In this document: positions 28,154-34,992 of the stretch, in pieces
Position numbering within the stretch: the stretch's first letter is position 1
Layout of the letters: each line of letters starts with the position of its first letter
DNA from: Algoriphagus machipongonensis
GTDB taxonomy: Bacteria > Bacteroidota > Bacteroidia > Cytophagales > Cyclobacteriaceae
Direction of reading: 5' to 3'
NCBI RefSeq assembly: GCF_000166275.1
Contig: NZ_CM001023.1
Coordinates: 1,615,001 to 1,679,000, forward strand
DNA: 64,000 bases
Notes under the pieces: model-generated
Databases searched by the model: none
Told to the model about the DNA's origin: nothing
Seen by the model: the letters and a program-made list of their open reading frames with translations, nothing else
Made by a program: the position numbers and the translations under genes

Positions 28154-28627
28154 TTAGGAAAGTAAATTCTGACGAAGAAGGAATTCTAACTGTTCATTAG
28201 CTTTCAGTAAAGCATCTGTAAGCTTTTCGTTTTCTCTTCTTAAAGTATATATCTCAAAAGCGTTTTTTATTACCGTTCTTAAGTAATCTTCTTCCCAAGG
28301 TTTAGTTAAGTAATGATATACCTGACCCTTATTGATCGCATCAATAACTGCTTGTATATCAGTATAACCTGTTAATAAAAGTCGTATAGGTTGAGGGTAA
28401 ATTGGGATAATACTTTCAAGAAATTCTACACCAGTTTCTTCTGGCATCCTCTGATCTGTAATAATCAGATCAACACTTTCTTTCTCCAGAATTTCTCGCC
28501 CTTCAACGGCCGAAACGGCCAAAAATATTTTATAATCCCGACGGAAAGTTGCCTTAAATGCATGAAGGTTGTTTTCTTCATCATCTACATACAAAATCTT
28601 TATTTTTTCTTCCCTTTCGGTTTCCAT
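28154..28627 (-). CDS. Single-domain response regulator (DQRMP/KPW type)
   Basis: 157 residues: a receiver domain and a short helical tail (ENEKLTDALLKANEQLEFLLRQ). Acidic pocket VDDEE, phospho-acceptor Asp in LIITDQRMPEETG, Thr in LLTGYTDIQAV and Lys in YLTKPWEE. The DQRMP and INKGQVYHYLTKPW signatures match receivers of the RpfG group, but no HD-GYP output domain is attached. Its receiver is closely similar to that of the kinase at 33907, on the other side of the divergent MoeY-like operon, so the two probably belong to one pathway. Confidence 0.85.
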   Translation of the reverse strand: METEREEKIKILYVDDEENNLHAFKATFRRDYKIFLAVSAVEGREILEKESVDLIITDQRMPEETGVEFLESIIPIYPQPIRLLLTGYTDIQAVIDAINKGQVYHYLTKPWEEDYLRTVIKNAFEIYTLRRENEKLTDALLKANEQLEFLLRQNLLS

Positions 28628-28715
28628 AAACTTCTTGATCCTATGATAGGTGTTATTTATATAGCCAAATAATCTTATTTCCTGTTAAAAAACAAAGAAT
28701 AATAGACTGTATTTT

Positions 28716-28791
28716 ATCTATTTTTGACTTAAATTAAATATTCCTCACGTTTATGTCTTAAATAGTTAAGCTATCTATTTGACATAAAACG
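28716..28791 (+). promoter_or_regulatory. Triple CTATTTnnGACWTAAA motif with large inverted repeat (candidate operator)
   Basis: Copy 1, plus strand, 28718-28733: CTATTTTTGACTTAAA. Copy 2, minus strand, 28765-28750: CTATTTAAGACATAAA. Copy 3, plus strand, 28775-28788: CTATTTGACATAAA, lacking the two middle bases. Copies 2 and 3 form an inverted repeat with a nine-base loop, extended by CG pairs at 28748-28749 and 28790-28791. Copy 3 covers the -33 TTTG of the downstream operon. This looks like a binding site for a dimeric regulator that I cannot name. Confidence 0.6.
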
Positions 28792-28807
28792 GAATAAATT
28801 ATCTTTA
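28778..28807 (+). promoter_or_regulatory. Promoter of the MoeY-like operon (TTTG-N18-TATCTTTA)
   Basis: -33 TTTG at 28778-28781, an 18-base spacer and -7 TATCTTTA at 28800-28807, one mismatch from TAnnTTTG. The expected start site leaves a leader of about 20 bases before the ATG at 28834. Confidence 0.6.
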
Positions 28808-28833
28808 CTGAGATATTCACCCAGTTTACACAA

Positions 28834-31101
28834 ATGTCAATTAAAATTTCTACTGATCAAAATGACCAGTACCTCCCTATATTGCTCAACCCTCAATTAA
28901 AGGATGACTGGTTAAGAATAAGTCGTCTTTTTGAAGACAATATTACAATAGTTAGTGATCAAATAGAAAGCCAAGTTTCAGATCTTATTAAATCTCAAAA
29001 TCCAGATAGGACGATTCCTTCTGGGGAGTTAGATATTCTCGTAAAAGAGTTTTTCTCCGATAAAGAAAAAGTTAAATATGGGAACTGGGTGTACTATCCC
29101 TGGAAAAATATTCTGGTTCACCTACTCGCAGAAGATGAGTTTGTTAAAATAAGAACTCTTCGAAATAATTTTAAAATAACTCCGTCTGAACAAGAGATTC
29201 TTGGAAAGAAGAAAGTGGGAGTTGTGGGTCTATCTGTAGGGCAAAGTGTGGCGTTAGCCATGACTTTGGAGAGGGGGTATGGAGAAATAAGGCTTGCTGA
29301 TTTTGATACGCTTGAGTTGAGTAATTTGAATCGACTGAAAGCTGGAGTGGTAAGTTTAGGCTTGGAGAAGGTGATTTTGGCAGCGAGAGAAATTGCTGAA
29401 ATAGACCCTTATCTAAAAGTGAAAGTCTTCCGCGAGGGAATTACCGAGGAGAACGTTGAAGATTTTATTTTGGATGGAGGGAAATTAGATTTGCTTATAG
29501 ATGAGTGTGACAGCTTAGATATCAAAGTATTACTAAGAAATAGGGCCAAGAAGCATCGCCTGGCAGTCATGATGGAAACATCAGACAAAGGCATGTTGGA
29601 TATAGAAAGATTTGATTTGGACCCAGAGAGGGAGTTGTTTCATGGGCTGCTTTCAGGAGTTGATGTAAATACATTAAAAAATCTGACCAATACTGAAAAG
29701 GTATCCATTGTACTGAAAATCACAGGACTTGAGACTTTAACACCCCGTATGAAAGTTTCATTGCTTGAAATTGGGCAAACCATTACGAGTTGGCCCCAGT
29801 TAGCATCAGGAGTCTTTTTAGGAGGTGCTTCTGTGGCACATGCCTCCAGAAAATTCCTTTTAGGTGAAGATGTGAAGTCTGGGAGGTTTTATGTGGATTT
29901 TGATCAATTATTCCAACTCAAGGAATCTGAAGAAATTGGTATTCCTTCATCTGATTTTCCTGAACTTTCGGAATTTAGTTTTAAAGTTCCTGAAAATGTA
30001 CTTCAGTCAGCCTATCAATTGTCAGAAAATGAGCTTCAAGAGTTGGTGAGTATGGCTAATTTGGCTCCTTCAGGAGGAAATATTCAGCCTTGGGTTTGGG
30101 TATTTGATAGAAAAGGAATTCTTCACCTCTTTCATGACAAGGTAAGAAGTCATTCCATGTTGGATTATAAAGGTACCGGGTCATTGATTGCTTTTGGTGC
30201 CGCTATAGAGAACTTAAGATTATGTGCTGGTCGCTTAGGAATTGAAATAGAAGTGATTCATCAGATTCAAGAATTTGGAGATGATTGTATAGCAAGTATT
30301 CGTTTCGTTTCGAAGGATTCAGGGGCATTGGATGTGAAGTTTAAAGAGCTTGTAGAAGGTGTTTCATTGAGATGTACGAATAGAAAAAATCCTAAACGAT
30401 ATAAGATTTCAAAGGAAGAGTTAGATTCCTTACTCGAGGTCTCCGAAGAAGAAGGGGTATCTCTAGAATGGACGGAACAGGAAAATGATCTTGATCAATT
30501 GGCTAAAGTTGTAGGGGGAATGGACCGATTGAGGTTCTTTCATGACCAAGGCTTAGTGGATTTTGTGAATGAGGTGAGGTGGACTGAAGAGGAAGCTTTC
30601 AAAACAAAAGATGGGATTGATATTGCGACTTTAGAATTATCTGGAACCGAAAAAGCAGCTATGGGCTTGCTAAGGGATCCTCGAACTATTAAATTCTTCA
30701 GAAAGTATTTGATGGGGTATGGATTGACGAAAATATCCAAAGACACTATTAACTTGGCAACTGGAATTTTCTTAATCAAAACAAAAAAATATGATCCCGT
30801 GTCTATTCTAAAAGCGGGTGCGGTTTTGCAAAGAATTTGGATCAAAGCCAATATGATGGGGTTAAGTGTTCAACCCGTCTCGGCAATGTTATTTATATTT
30901 CACAGAATTTTGGGTGAAAAAGACCATGGCTATACTGCTGTGGAAGAAAAAGAAATTAGAGAACTGAAGGAGTCCTTCAATAGGATTTTCAATAAAAATA
31001 ATGACCAGCAAGAGATATTTATGTTTAGGGTAAATAAAGCTGGAGAGCCAAGTATGCGAGCTTATAGAAGAGATTATTCGGAAACCTTAATCAAAGTCTG
31101 A
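28834..31101 (+). CDS. Rv1355c/MoeY-like ThiF-nitroreductase fusion protein
   Basis: 755 residues without signal peptide or helices. Residues about 120-300 form an E1-like ThiF adenylation domain: GVVGLSVGQSVAL nucleotide loop, ADFDTLELSNLNRL with the conserved Asp and Arg, and LLIDECDSLDIK. The zinc CxxC pairs of ThiF/MoeB are absent. Residues about 390-730 form a nitroreductase-like flavin domain: ENELQELVSMANLAPSGGNIQPW and a C-terminal VLQRIWIKANMMGLSVQPVS. Mycobacterial Rv1355c (moeY) has this architecture, though its proposed molybdopterin role is unproven. Two bases before the acyltransferase-like gene. Confidence 0.82.
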   Translation: MSIKISTDQNDQYLPILLNPQLKDDWLRISRLFEDNITIVSDQIESQVSDLIKSQNPDRTIPSGELDILVKEFFSDKEKVKYGNWVYYPWKNILVHLLAEDEFVKIRTLRNNFKITPSEQEILGKKKVGVVGLSVGQSVALAMTLERGYGEIRLADFDTLELSNLNRLKAGVVSLGLEKVILAAREIAEIDPYLKVKVFREGITEENVEDFILDGGKLDLLIDECDSLDIKVLLRNRAKKHRLAVMMETSDKGMLDIERFDLDPERELFHGLLSGVDVNTLKNLTNTEKVSIVLKITGLETLTPRMKVSLLEIGQTITSWPQLASGVFLGGASVAHASRKFLLGEDVKSGRFYVDFDQLFQLKESEEIGIPSSDFPELSEFSFKVPENVLQSAYQLSENELQELVSMANLAPSGGNIQPWVWVFDRKGILHLFHDKVRSHSMLDYKGTGSLIAFGAAIENLRLCAGRLGIEIEVIHQIQEFGDDCIASIRFVSKDSGALDVKFKELVEGVSLRCTNRKNPKRYKISKEELDSLLEVSEEEGVSLEWTEQENDLDQLAKVVGGMDRLRFFHDQGLVDFVNEVRWTEEEAFKTKDGIDIATLELSGTEKAAMGLLRDPRTIKFFRKYLMGYGLTKISKDTINLATGIFLIKTKKYDPVSILKAGAVLQRIWIKANMMGLSVQPVSAMLFIFHRILGEKDHGYTAVEEKEIRELKESFNRIFNKNNDQQEIFMFRVNKAGEPSMRAYRRDYSETLIKV

Positions 31102-31102
31102 A

Positions 31103-31813
31103 ATGTTTCATTTTAAAGCATTTAGGGCGATAGATGAACCGGAAAGGTGTCAAAAATTTGTTCAGGGGCACTCCGATGTCCTTAAGCAATATGGTGTCAC
31201 CAAAGTCACCTCATCAAACAATGATTGGGTCAATAACCCATTTGTGTATGTGGTGACTGTGGAGAATGAGGAAACATCAGAAGTAGTCAGCGGTTTGAGG
31301 ATTCATATAGCTCATCCAGACTTTCCTTTGCCTATGGAGCAAGCAGTTTCTCAGGTTGATCATAATATTTTTCAGTTAGTCAAAGATTATTCAAAAGAAG
31401 GTACAGGGGAAGTATCCGGACTTTGGAATTCCAAATCCATTTCTGGTTATGGAATAGGAGCTGTGTTACTGATCAGGGCTGGTATCGCTATTGCCACACA
31501 ACTAAAACTAGGTTCTTTATTGGCGCTTGTGGCGGAGTATACCTTAAAACCTTCTCTTCAAAAAGGTTTTGAAATTGAAACTGGTGTAGGGAATTCAGGT
31601 ACTTTCTTTTACCCAAAACTGGATTTAGTAGCTACTTCCATCGTAATGAAGGACCCAGAGAAATTACCACTTGCTGATGCCTCTGAAAGGGAAAGGATTT
31701 TTGAACTTAGAGAAAAGGTGCAATACAAAAAAATAGAAGAAGGTCCGAAAGGTAAGTTTGAAGTAGACTATGACCTTTTGATTGAAAATATTAATTGGAG
31801 AGATGATGTATAA
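31103..31813 (+). CDS. GNAT/autoinducer-synthase-like acyltransferase candidate
   Basis: 236 residues, soluble. Strands VYVVTVENEETSEVVSGLRIHIA are followed by GEVSGLWNSK, a position equivalent to the ELSR/EVS motif of acyl-homoserine lactone synthase and N-acyl amino acid synthase folds. A glycine-containing helix GYGIGAVLLIRAGIAIATQL could bind acyl-CoA, and a strand-loop FEIETGVGNSGTFFYP follows. I infer a GNAT-fold N-acyltransferase; substrate unknown. It starts two bases after the ThiF-nitroreductase gene and overlaps the histidine kinase by up to 11 bases, implying tight co-translation. Confidence 0.5.
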   Translation: MFHFKAFRAIDEPERCQKFVQGHSDVLKQYGVTKVTSSNNDWVNNPFVYVVTVENEETSEVVSGLRIHIAHPDFPLPMEQAVSQVDHNIFQLVKDYSKEGTGEVSGLWNSKSISGYGIGAVLLIRAGIAIATQLKLGSLLALVAEYTLKPSLQKGFEIETGVGNSGTFFYPKLDLVATSIVMKDPEKLPLADASERERIFELREKVQYKKIEEGPKGKFEVDYDLLIENINWRDDV

Positions 31814-33914
31814 GATTTTTGTTTTTTGCCTATTGTTTTTGGCAACAACATTTCAAGGCTTTGCACAATTTGAGAATGTTGAAAAAGTAGAATGCTTCTC
31901 CTATAAAATGACCGACCCTGATGTAGGGGTTGAAGAATTAATTCAAGAAGAATCGTTTACATATAACAACTGTAATAATTTCAATTTTGGAATTAATGAA
32001 AGTGTGCTGTGGGTAAAGTTAGAGCTAAATGGACTTAGCGACATAGAAAACCCAACGTTTACTTTAAATTCCACCTCACTGGATCTAGTCGATTTTTATT
32101 CAGTCAAAGGTGGAGAAGTGATTAGAGAACAAAAGAATGGTCGCCTTTTAGGGATAGAAGCTCGTGATGTTGATTCTCAGAAAATCATATTTGAAATTAA
32201 TAATGAGGAAATTACAGCTGACTATTTTTTGGTTAGAATTCAAAATGTAGATAAAAAAATATTCACTGGTTTTGTATCCTCTAAAGAAGATTTATTAAAC
32301 ATTCTGAATTTTGAGGAGATCCTTTTTGGGATTTTGACAGGGATATTTATAGGCTTGTTTTTTTATAATTTGTTTTTATACTTTTCCGTAAAAGACAAAA
32401 TCTATTTTATATATGTTTTGCACACCTTATTGGTTTGGTTTGCACAAGCCTCCATTCTAGGATTTACCCAGTTCCTACTTTGGCCCGATTGGGATTGGAT
32501 GAATCAACGGTCTATAGTGATTTTTTCTTCTTTGGTAAGTATTGTTGGGATTTGGTTCTTAAGAATATTTTTACTCTCCAAGAGTATCGTCCCCAAACTG
32601 GATAAAGGATTTAATGTGATCTTTTTGGTTTATGGGTTTATACTATTAAATGCCATCGTCTTTTCTATTACGATAAGCTACCAGGTGCTTTTAGTCACTC
32701 AGTCTATTGTAGTAATATTTGTATTGGCTGTTGCAGTGATGATTTTGAGAAAGGGGTACAGACCAGCAAGATATTATTTGTTGGCTTGGTCCATTTTTAT
32801 GGTAGGTATTTTCCTTTTTGTTTTTAGTGAAATGGGTATAATTCCATCCAATAATTTCACAGCTTACATTATGCCTTTAGGTTCAGCTTTGGAGGTGGTG
32901 CTTCTTTCATTTGCATTGGCAGATAGGATTAACATCCTTAAAAAGGAAAAAGAGAGAGAGCAGGCGGAAAGATTGGAAGTTTTGAAGGAAAATGAAACCC
33001 TAGTTAAAGAACAAAATACGCTTCTTGAAAAGAAGGTGAAGATGAGGACTGATGAGTTGGAAAGTGCACTACGCAACCTGCAAAATACGCAAAGCCAATT
33101 GGTTAATCAGGAGAAGATGGCATCTTTAGGGCAATTGACAGCGGGTATTGCACATGAAATAAACAATCCAATCAATTTTGTGAGTTCTAATATTATGCCT
33201 CTTAAAAGAGATATTAAGGATATCATGGAGGTGATTGATTTTTACAGAAATACGGGATTAAAGGAATTTACAGAGGAGTCCAAAAAGGAGGCAAAAGATC
33301 TGGAAGAAGATCTGGAGTTGGATTATGTATTGGATGAAGTAGATCAATTGCTTAAGGGAATGGAAGATGGAGCCCGTAGAACAGTAGAGATTGTCAAAGG
33401 GCTTAGATTATTCTCCAGAGTGGATGAGCAAGATGTCAAAAAGGTAGATTTGCATGATGGCATTAACAGTACTATTATCCTTTTGAATAGCTCCATCCCG
33501 GGTAAAATTAGGATTGTCAGAGAGTTTAATGAGCTTCCTATGGTGGAATGCCTGGCGGGTAAGATTAACCAGGTATTTATGAATATTATTAATAATGCCG
33601 TTCATGCTCTTTCGGACCATATGGAGGAAATTAAAGATCCGCATATAACTATTCGAACTAAATCTAAAGTGGATTACGTTACGGTAGAAATTGAAGATAA
33701 TGGGCCGGGTATGCCTGATACTGTAAAAGAACGTATATTTGAACCATTCTTTACGACGAAAGCTGTTGGAAAAGGGACTGGTTTAGGCCTGTCAATTGTT
33801 TATTCTATTATTGAAAATCACAAAGGGACCCTAGAAGTGAAAACCACTCAGGGTGAGGGTACAACTTTTATTATTACCCTACCTGTAAACCAAAGTACTC
33901 AAAAATATGAGTGA
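31803..33914 (+). CDS. 7TMR-DISM sensor histidine kinase
   Basis: About 703 residues. A signal peptide ([17 protein letters not shown]) is followed by a 7TMR-DISM extracellular beta domain (about 25-170), seven helices (about 175-385), a coiled coil (390-440, [17 protein letters not shown]), and the kinase core: H box [20 protein letters not shown] box [13 protein letters not shown]1 DNGPGMP and G2 [13 protein letters not shown] domains bind carbohydrate-like or other small ligands outside the cell. ATG 31803 or 31806 follows a GGAG; an upstream start would spoil the signal peptide. It overlaps the next gene by eight bases. Confidence 0.92.
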
Positions 33915-34992
33915 TAAAATCCATGTACTCTATATTGATGATGAGGATAATAACCTAAAGTCATTTAGAGCCACACTTAGAAAAGACTTTAAAATTTTTA
34001 CTGCTATTGATGCAGAAGAAGGCTTGAGGATTGCCCAGGAAGAGGAAATTCATGTGGTAATTGCTGATCAAAGAATGCCCGGTATGACTGGGACAGAGTT
34101 CTTTGAAAAGATGGTGGAAATCAATCCTGATCCCATCAGAATACTGTTAACAGGATATTCAGATATTGCTTCGGTTATTGATGCAATCAATAAAGGGGAA
34201 GTCTATCGTTTTATAGATAAGCCTTGGAATATTGAACAGATTAAAAACTCTATTAAAAATGCTGCTGATATCTATTTTATGAGAATGGAGTTGAAGGAGA
34301 AGAATATCCGACTGAAAAAACTTCACTCTGAAATGAATCAGTTTGTTTACAGTTTGTCGCATGAATTGAGAGGCCCACTGATGAGTATTTCAGGAGTTTC
34401 AAAATTGGCGAAGCTTGAAGTGGAAGATGCGAGAATTCTGGAGTATTTTGAAATGATAGATTCCTCTACCAACAAGCTAGATGATTACATCTATAAGATG
34501 CTTGATTTTTATCGATCTACTAAAATTGATCATAAAGTGACTGAGATTGATTTTCAGGTGACTATAGATCAGCAGATGGAATCATATCAGGCGAAATTTG
34601 ATTTAAGCCATTTTAAAATAGATTTACAAATCAACCAACGACATACTTTTTATTCGGATGATGCCAAGATTAGGGTAATCTTAAATAATTTATTCAGCAA
34701 TGCAGTCCAGTTTCAAAAGCATGGACCAGGACAAAAATGGATATCCTTGAGCATTGACGTGTTGGAAAATGAGGCAATCATCAACGTGGAGGATAATGGT
34801 ATAGGAATTGATAAAAATTCTCAATCCGAAGTCTTCAACCTATTTACAAGAGCTACTCAAAAGAATGTAGGGGTAGGATTGGGGCTTTATATGGTCAAAG
34901 AAGCCGTGGAGCAAATGGGAGGTAAAATAGATTTAAAATCAGCGCTAAATGAAGGAACTTGCATTACAGTGACCTTACCTAGTATGAAATAA
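33907..34992 (+). CDS. Receiver-histidine kinase protein
   Basis: 361 residues with the receiver in front of the kinase. Receiver 1-120: YIDDED, VVIADQRMPGMTG, LLTGYSD, FIDKPWN. A short coiled linker leads to the HisKA domain with VYSLSHELRGPLMSISG (His near 153), then HATPase with N box VILNNLFSNAVQF, G1 DNGIGID and G2 VGVGLGLYMVK. There are no membrane segments, so it probably receives phosphate from the upstream 7TMR kinase and passes it on. No DNA-binding output is present. Its receiver closely resembles the stand-alone regulator at 28154. Confidence 0.9.
   Translation: MSDKIHVLYIDDEDNNLKSFRATLRKDFKIFTAIDAEEGLRIAQEEEIHVVIADQRMPGMTGTEFFEKMVEINPDPIRILLTGYSDIASVIDAINKGEVYRFIDKPWNIEQIKNSIKNAADIYFMRMELKEKNIRLKKLHSEMNQFVYSLSHELRGPLMSISGVSKLAKLEVEDARILEYFEMIDSSTNKLDDYIYKMLDFYRSTKIDHKVTEIDFQVTIDQQMESYQAKFDLSHFKIDLQINQRHTFYSDDAKIRVILNNLFSNAVQFQKHGPGQKWISLSIDVLENEAIINVEDNGIGIDKNSQSEVFNLFTRATQKNVGVGLGLYMVKEAVEQMGGKIDLKSALNEGTCITVTLPSMK

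Follow-up and report, generated by a model that had tools for sequence, protein, structure and literature searches.

We analysed a window of 64,000 nucleotides from Algoriphagus machipongonensis (contig NZ_CM001023.1), taken from a complete genome of 4.79 Mb (C1:1615001-1679000). We followed up a cassette of five genes at its positions 28154 to 34992, in which a candidate N-acyl amino acid synthase (NAS) lies beside a 7TMR-DISM sensor kinase and which we read as a probable signalling module. The features of the cassette are as follows.

28154..28627, minus strand: stand-alone receiver (REC) of 157 amino acids without output domain (Pfam Response_reg, E=3e-18), divergent from the operon
28628..28833, no strand: intergenic stretch separating the operon from the divergent receiver, presumed from its position to hold the promoters
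28834..31101, plus strand: gene 1, TrzS-like ThiF-nitroreductase fusion (NCBIfam NF005901; Pfam ThiF and Nitroreductase; Asp226)
31103..31813, plus strand: gene 2, NAS candidate of 236 amino acids with a predicted FeeM/LuxI-like fold
31803 (or 31806)..33914, plus strand: gene 3, 7TMR-DISM sensor histidine kinase (Pfam), with an ATG at 31803 or 31806
33907..34992, plus strand: gene 4, receiver-histidine kinase (REC-HK) of REC-HisKA-HATPase architecture (Pfam)

An earlier note, made from the sequence alone, had proposed these five genes and their domain types, and Pfam and NCBIfam scans recovered all five open reading frames with the expected domains. It had given the spacings within the operon as 2, -11 and -8 bases; the overlaps of 11 bases between genes 2 and 3 (with the first ATG) and of 8 bases between genes 3 and 4 stand, and the gap between genes 1 and 2 is a single base (31102). 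It had also named Rv1355c/MoeY as the nearest relative of gene 1. The Rv1355c part is borne out by the NCBIfam family NF005901 (740 bits for a cut-off of 476, residues 6-752 of 755), and the MoeY label, with the molybdopterin function it implies, was rejected, as this family is now that of TrzS. Pfam matched gene 1 to ThiF (E=2e-20) and Nitroreductase (9e-8). Rv1355c has been renamed TrzS, and its ThiF-oxidase together with an N-acyltransferase yields N-acyl oxazolones (PMC12856293, PMC10404671; here and below, citations are to excerpts of the papers). Gene 1 belongs to a family with published chemistry, so its own chemistry is predictable, and this prediction is the firmest part of the overall reading. 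Asp226, in a CD motif, is invariant in 23 of 23 aligned homologues, including two actinobacterial members of the family, and by motif and numbering offset would correspond to the catalytic Asp217 of the M. smegmatis cyclase. Arg567 is kept in 22 of the 23 and fits Arg540 of the studied oxidase by numbering offset only. At the place expected for Gln651, an alignment that did not include the studied enzyme has Gln in the window, L239 and L111 and His in the Rhodococcus homologue (L238). An azole peptide pathway was rejected: as the earlier note had said, YcaO is missing, with no Pfam match to it in the five cassette and two flanking proteins scanned, small peptides not having been searched for.

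For gene 2, scans of Pfam, NCBIfam, PADLOC and PHROGs gave no match at the thresholds used. Its predicted fold is that of an acyltransferase, as had been suspected, and is closest to the N-acyl amino acid synthase FeeM and to LuxI-type acyl-homoserine lactone (AHL) synthases. The likeness to LuxI is one of fold only, with no Pfam family matched at E-values up to 1, and a search of PDB sequences with the NAS profile gave a best E-value of just 0.095. The nearest named relatives are from Algoriphagus. Fusion proteins of ThiF-NTR-NAS and ThiF-NAS type occur (L197, L204; NTR, nitroreductase domain). One contig carries two different tandem NAS genes (181 and 289 bits) ahead of a DISM kinase (L206:11502-12949; L295 is on the same contig), possibly for two signals or a hetero-pair.

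Gene 3 combines a DISMED2 ectodomain (5e-13) and a 7TMR-DISM_7TM region (4e-49), at about amino acids 1-380, with a HisKA and HATPase kinase core (Pfam). The sensor half is hypervariable and the kinase half conserved. Gene 4 has a receiver followed by HisKA and HATPase domains (Pfam), a PhcR-like architecture, and Pfam revealed no DNA-binding domain in it. The best NCBIfam resemblance of the divergent receiver is to a NosR-type receiver, far under the cut-off of that family. When plasmids were searched with REC-HK and REC, the matches listed were to kinases and receivers of a generic kind, and Phc proteins were not singled out. In the genome of the window PF07695 has two matches; two genomes of the same order, G036 and G055, have 12 DISM-sensor matches each. 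Genome G037 has a similar DISM sensor and no NAS match, possibly a receptor without synthase. In one locus the cassette is extended by a REC-PAS-HisKA_3 kinase and a REC-GerE regulator of LuxR type (L213:14210-16238), the latter being a candidate transcriptional output in that locus.

To assess how often synthase and sensor occur together, we built an NAS profile (18 rows) and a ThiF alignment (11 rows) from kinase-linked loci and gathered four sets of loci, none of them chosen for the kinase. The NAS profile matched in 13 of 395 genomes sampled across the phylum, 76 of 395 across the class and 52 of 241 across the order (the samples overlap). DISM, NAS, ThiF, NTR and REC were scored with our own profiles, and DISM was confirmed by Pfam in the window, L139, L140 and L110. 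Set a holds 57 loci retrieved with the NAS protein or NF005901; set b, the best 80 of 539 confirmed places for the ThiF alignment in named genomes; set c, 62 NAS-anchored loci (L236, L237, L285-L344); and set d, 44 short loci (L241-L284) that repeat places of sets a and c. The sets overlap, with L137/L195, L162/L302, L199/L328 and L206/L295 each on the same contig.

The pairing was near-constant and goes beyond chance, the genome of the window having two PF07695 matches in all. In set a, ThiF scored above 250 bits in 54 of 57 loci (not in L098, L110 and L142), 53 of which have at least 5.5 kb downstream; both NAS and DISM lie near ThiF in 52 of these 53, and L136 has neither. Among the 64 loci of set b with at least 5.5 kb downstream, NAS was present in 62, DISM in 60 and REC-HK in 56, the loci without DISM near ThiF being L191, L192, L204 and L215. 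Counted from NAS, with at least 1.5 kb downstream, 70 of 73 loci of set b have DISM (not L190, whose contig ends behind ThiF, L191 and L204). In set c a DISM kinase lies downstream on the same strand in all 60 loci with at least 1.5 kb downstream, 47 of which also have ThiF, and set d has DISM in 40 of 44 (exceptions L241, L263, L265 and L279). L158 and L205 stop before any NAS could appear. Among the loci with room downstream, 50 of 53 in set a and 55 of 64 in set b have a short REC gene no more than 6 kb from ThiF. Of 36 genomes of the genus, 25 carry NAS together with the DISM sensor and the other 11 lack both; as those 11 are small assemblies of 67-91% completeness, the absence is less certain.

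In the family of the window AlaDH and PPase genes flank the cassette in most cases. We rejected shared synteny as a full account of the pairing, as other families have differing flanks and a reversible order of NAS and ThiF. The earlier note would have given up its proposal had the adjacency been confined to very close relatives, or had gene 2 been unrelated in structure to acyltransferases; neither was so, the adjacency being conserved over many Bacteroidota families, with unrelated flanks and differing gene orders, and the model of gene 2 having an acyltransferase fold. Outside Bacteroidota, in three actinobacterial plasmid loci and one of Brevibacillus, no DISM kinase was annotated or matched. 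The Streptomyces plasmid among these carries, some 5 kb away, a response regulator and a sensor protein of unspecified kind. The Brevibacillus thermoruber locus (L192:7850-10062), where neither NAS nor DISM matched, has a ThiF relative with 60% identity to the query, next to a protein of 351 amino acids without Pfam match, and is either a stray transfer or a mis-binned piece.

We then compared gene orders in 115 non-redundant loci selected for NAS, DISM kinase and REC-HK, with NAS proteins more than 85% identical collapsed. The orders were ThiF-NAS-HK-RECHK (78 loci), NAS-ThiF-HK-RECHK (28), NAS-HK-RECHK (7, with L289 and L339 truncated upstream) and RECHK-ThiF-NAS-HK (2), REC-HK thus lying downstream of the DISM kinase in 113 and upstream of ThiF in two. 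Many Bacteroidota versions lack an oxidase match; the NTR profile was built from the window domain alone (scored as fused or within 6 kb), so a diverged oxidase in ThiF-only loci could be missed. Loci without ThiF often have other enzymes between NAS and the kinase: the proteins of about 255 amino acids beside NAS were S-adenosylmethionine methyltransferases in six of six tested (Pfam), L326 has an O-methyltransferase (its upstream contig is cut), L316 a further protein of similar size, and L237 an ICMT-family protein beside NAS. These methyltransferases may possibly cap the same carboxylate. L110:5123-9808 holds NAS, an FAD-linked oxidase and a DISM-SpoIIE phosphatase protein that replaces the kinase, a sensor of the same type with a different output, and in L236 and L304 no such enzyme is seen between NAS and the kinase. 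NAS keeps its DISM sensor while the tailoring enzymes vary, and the two therefore appear to be the core, with variable chemistry around it.

Within the genus we compared 27 loci (the window and 26 others), with types set from NAS identity to the window alone: A1 (79-89%, 7 loci with the window), A2 (60-64%, 9 loci) and B (39-47%, 11 loci), the last being mixed (36-100% within). Mean identities for A1-A1/A1-A2/A1-B were 84/62/43 for NAS, 42/25/16 for the ectodomain and 80/74/37 for the 7TM region; they were 84/84/83 for the kinase core, 82/81/80 for REC-HK and 70/66/60 for the ThiF domain, and among the flanks 92/92/93 for PPase and 84/82/81 for AlaDH. The NAS type changes twice on each of the NAS, 7TM and ectodomain trees, 8 times on the flank tree (24 loci, three being without flank genes), 8 times on ThiF, 7 on NTR (25 loci) and 11 on both the kinase core and REC-HK. 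Loci L088 and L094 are 95-100% identical in the flanks, kinase half and REC-HK, and mostly so in REC (one block of 200 bases at 87%); from about TrzS codon 180 to HK codon 250 their identity is 48-76%, rising at the edges to 85% around TrzS codon 113 and to 82% around HK codon 319, so that just TrzS, NAS and the sensor differ strongly. This profile places the end of the exchange near the junction of sensor and kinase. In four other, more distant pairs NAS and sensor dip as well, deeply in three and shallowly in the within-B pair L103/L117.

Across the wider sample, 114 loci were labelled by tailoring (81 ThiF-NTR, 28 ThiF, 5 none or other), L289 being dropped and L339 relabelled because its contig begins inside an NTR. 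On the 7TM tree the label switches 14 times (bootstrap 13-18), compared with 17 on the ectodomain (15-19), 21 on NAS (19-23), 22 on REC-HK (21-25) and 25 on the kinase core (23-28), with about 30 for shuffled labels. For the 108 loci with ThiF the counts were 8 (ThiF), 12 (ectodomain), 12 (7TM), 15 (NAS), 19 (REC-HK) and 21 (kinase core). Partial Mantel correlations over these 108 loci were 0.42 for ThiF and ectodomain (0/500 permutations), 0.12 for ThiF and NAS, 0.14 and 0.15 for NAS with ectodomain and 7TM (0/500 each) and 0.05 for NAS with the kinase core (48/500). A run on all 115 loci gave similar co-variation figures.

Near-constant pairing, interchangeable chemistry, hypervariability limited to the sensor and matched replacement: this is the pattern of a signal synthase with its receptor. 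We propose a self-contained module of autoinducer type that uses an N-acyl amino acid or oxazolone. It builds on the family of gene 1, the fold of gene 2, the conserved pairing, the interchange of tailoring enzymes and the allelic co-replacement, all seen with the tools used here; the exact product, its sensing by the kinase, the relay and the output we infer. The LuxI/FeeM-fold synthase would join an acyl group to an amino acid, probably an aromatic one by analogy with TrzA and TyzA. The TrzS-like protein would then adenylate the N-acyl amino acid, cyclise it and desaturate the resulting ring, which would yield a neutral N-acyl oxazolone; elsewhere no oxidase is matched, or ThiF gives way to a methyltransferase or FAD oxidase. 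The product would be sensed by the ectodomain/7TM half of the DISM kinase, and phosphate may pass from the kinase to the receiver-kinase and receivers and on to a target outside the cassette, as proposed for PhcS-PhcR-PhcQ. The coupling of biosynthetic enzymes to a sensor, and its link to signalling, which the earlier note had put forward as its own idea, we judge supported.

We place the probability of this module at about 60%, and several observations weigh against it. The cassette of the window contains no output gene, and the tryptazolones of Actinobacteria are mainly cell-associated, acyl-tryptophans being found in the medium (PMC12856293). As the search profiles came from kinase-linked loci, distant relatives free of the kinase may be under-sampled. 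Three loci with room (L191, L204 and L215) have ThiF beside NAS, or in L215 beside a weak GNAT match, and no sensor there. In favour of the module, the Dyadobacter genomes of L191 and L215 have an NAS, a cassette-type DISM kinase and an end-cut receiver gene elsewhere (L345:2-3609, L346:3-3610); with a ThiF locus and a separate NAS-DISM-REC cassette, both may therefore make two such products. Against it, ThiF also correlates over the 108 loci with the kinase core (0.29, 0/500) and not with 7TM (0.01), and NAS correlates with REC-HK (0.22, 0/500; range over runs 0.22-0.34). In the 28 NAS-ThiF-HK loci the partial correlations of NAS with the sensor are -0.05 and -0.03, and the adjacent ThiF-7TM pair gives 0.37, and in the 80 ThiF-NAS loci NAS-7TM reaches 0.41; the sensor thus tends to follow the adjacent enzyme in either order, and linkage is part of the co-variation. 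These orders, and the contiguity of the block replaced between L088 and L094, would suit exchange through linkage only, under another diversifying pressure such as recognition of the exposed sensor by phage or predators. We hold this to be improbable: where the order is ThiF-NAS-HK, the non-adjacent ThiF tracks the ectodomain (0.38, 0/500), though also the kinase core (0.26); although NAS has ThiF as well as HK for a neighbour, its types fit the sensor cleanly and do not fit ThiF (2 changes against 8); and it is hard to see why a synthase inside the cell should diversify when an outside protein is recognised.

A more serious competitor, which we still find doubtful, is that the DISM kinase senses some other cue (a glycan, an ion or envelope stress) and that the oxazolone is an effector under control of the relay, such as an antimicrobial or a membrane or redox lipid. 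Sensors of DISMED2/7TM type, RetS and LadS among them, are not known as autoinducer receptors, which we count in favour of cue-regulated synthesis, as we do the weak sequence match of the sensor of gene 3 to RetS structures (E 0.3-0.5) and the capacity of linkage alone to move adjacent genes together. N-acyl tyrosines have been reported as antimicrobial, and oxazolones as antibiotic-induced in proteobacteria (PMC12856293). Such regulation does not predict that sensor and synthase share three types, unlike the kinase core, REC-HK, ThiF and flanks, nor that the tailoring type follows the sensor more closely than it follows the kinase core, and the sensor is retained in loci where ThiF is not seen. 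As to an E1-like protein-conjugation or defence system of ThiF and a flavin domain, which we rejected as very improbable, PADLOC E1-E2 models gave weak, partial matches (best 34.8 bits) limited to the ThiF stretch, the whole protein fits NF005901, and no E2, JAB or ubiquitin-like gene is present among the scanned cassette and neighbouring genes. In the boldest form of the autoinducer-type reading, which we think slightly more likely than not, signal and receptor are exchanged jointly in nature as specificity types (pherotypes).

At its start (1-2507) the window holds the 3' part of a 23S rRNA gene and then a 5S rRNA, which accounts for the high G+C there.

The authors of the tryptazolone study call the physiological role of oxazolones a major open question (PMC12856293). 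In nearly every Bacteroidota locus examined the biosynthetic genes bring their own sensor kinase, and the natural allelic types offer ready cross-activation tests. If the proposal is true, signalling by a paired synthase and receptor exists in a large environmental phylum, N-acyl oxazolones gain a physiological role, DISM receptors are autoinducer receptors and the ligands of 7TMR-DISM proteins become testable. Among the titles and abstract openings of openly licensed literature, we found no report that ties DISM kinases or signalling in Bacteroidota to the synthesis of oxazolones or N-acyl amino acids. A signalling role has already been suggested for oxazolones, which were likened to AHLs, and c-di-GMP genes lie beside trzAS (PMC12856293).

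The cassette shares with the TrzAS, OxzAB and TyzACB pathways a ThiF cyclase, a flavin oxidase and an adjacent N-acyltransferase of FeeM/LuxI fold (PMC12856293, PMC10404671). It differs in that the excerpts describe no DISM kinase with those clusters, and none is annotated in the three actinobacterial plasmid loci; its synthase is without sequence-family match, and many Bacteroidota cassettes lack the oxidase, some having methyltransferases in place of ThiF. With LuxI/LuxR and FeeM it has the synthase fold in common; gene 2 has no Pfam LuxI match, and the receptor would be a membrane kinase and not LuxR. PhcBSRQ of Ralstonia resembles it in architecture only, with a signal enzyme, a sensor kinase, a receiver-kinase and a receiver, the last two without DNA-binding domain; there the signal, a 3-hydroxy fatty acid methyl ester, comes from a single methyltransferase, and neither a FeeM-like synthase nor ThiF is named in the excerpts (PMC8578825). 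Pfam found no methyltransferase that could stand for PhcB among the cassette proteins of the window, and some relatives have a methyltransferase beside NAS. In agr of Staphylococcus, AgrB, AgrD and AgrC are variable and AgrA is conserved, which gives specificity groups; the signal there is a peptide, and we draw the likeness without a claim of homology (PMC8919982). The parallel here is that TrzS, NAS and the sensor half vary and the kinase core and REC-HK are conserved. The system had been thought undescribed, which does not hold for the enzymes, given the published TrzS chemistry, and does for the constant presence of a DISM kinase as partner and for the way matched types of synthase and sensor are swapped together; enzymes and receptor family are each known in kind, and their union as a module appears to be new.

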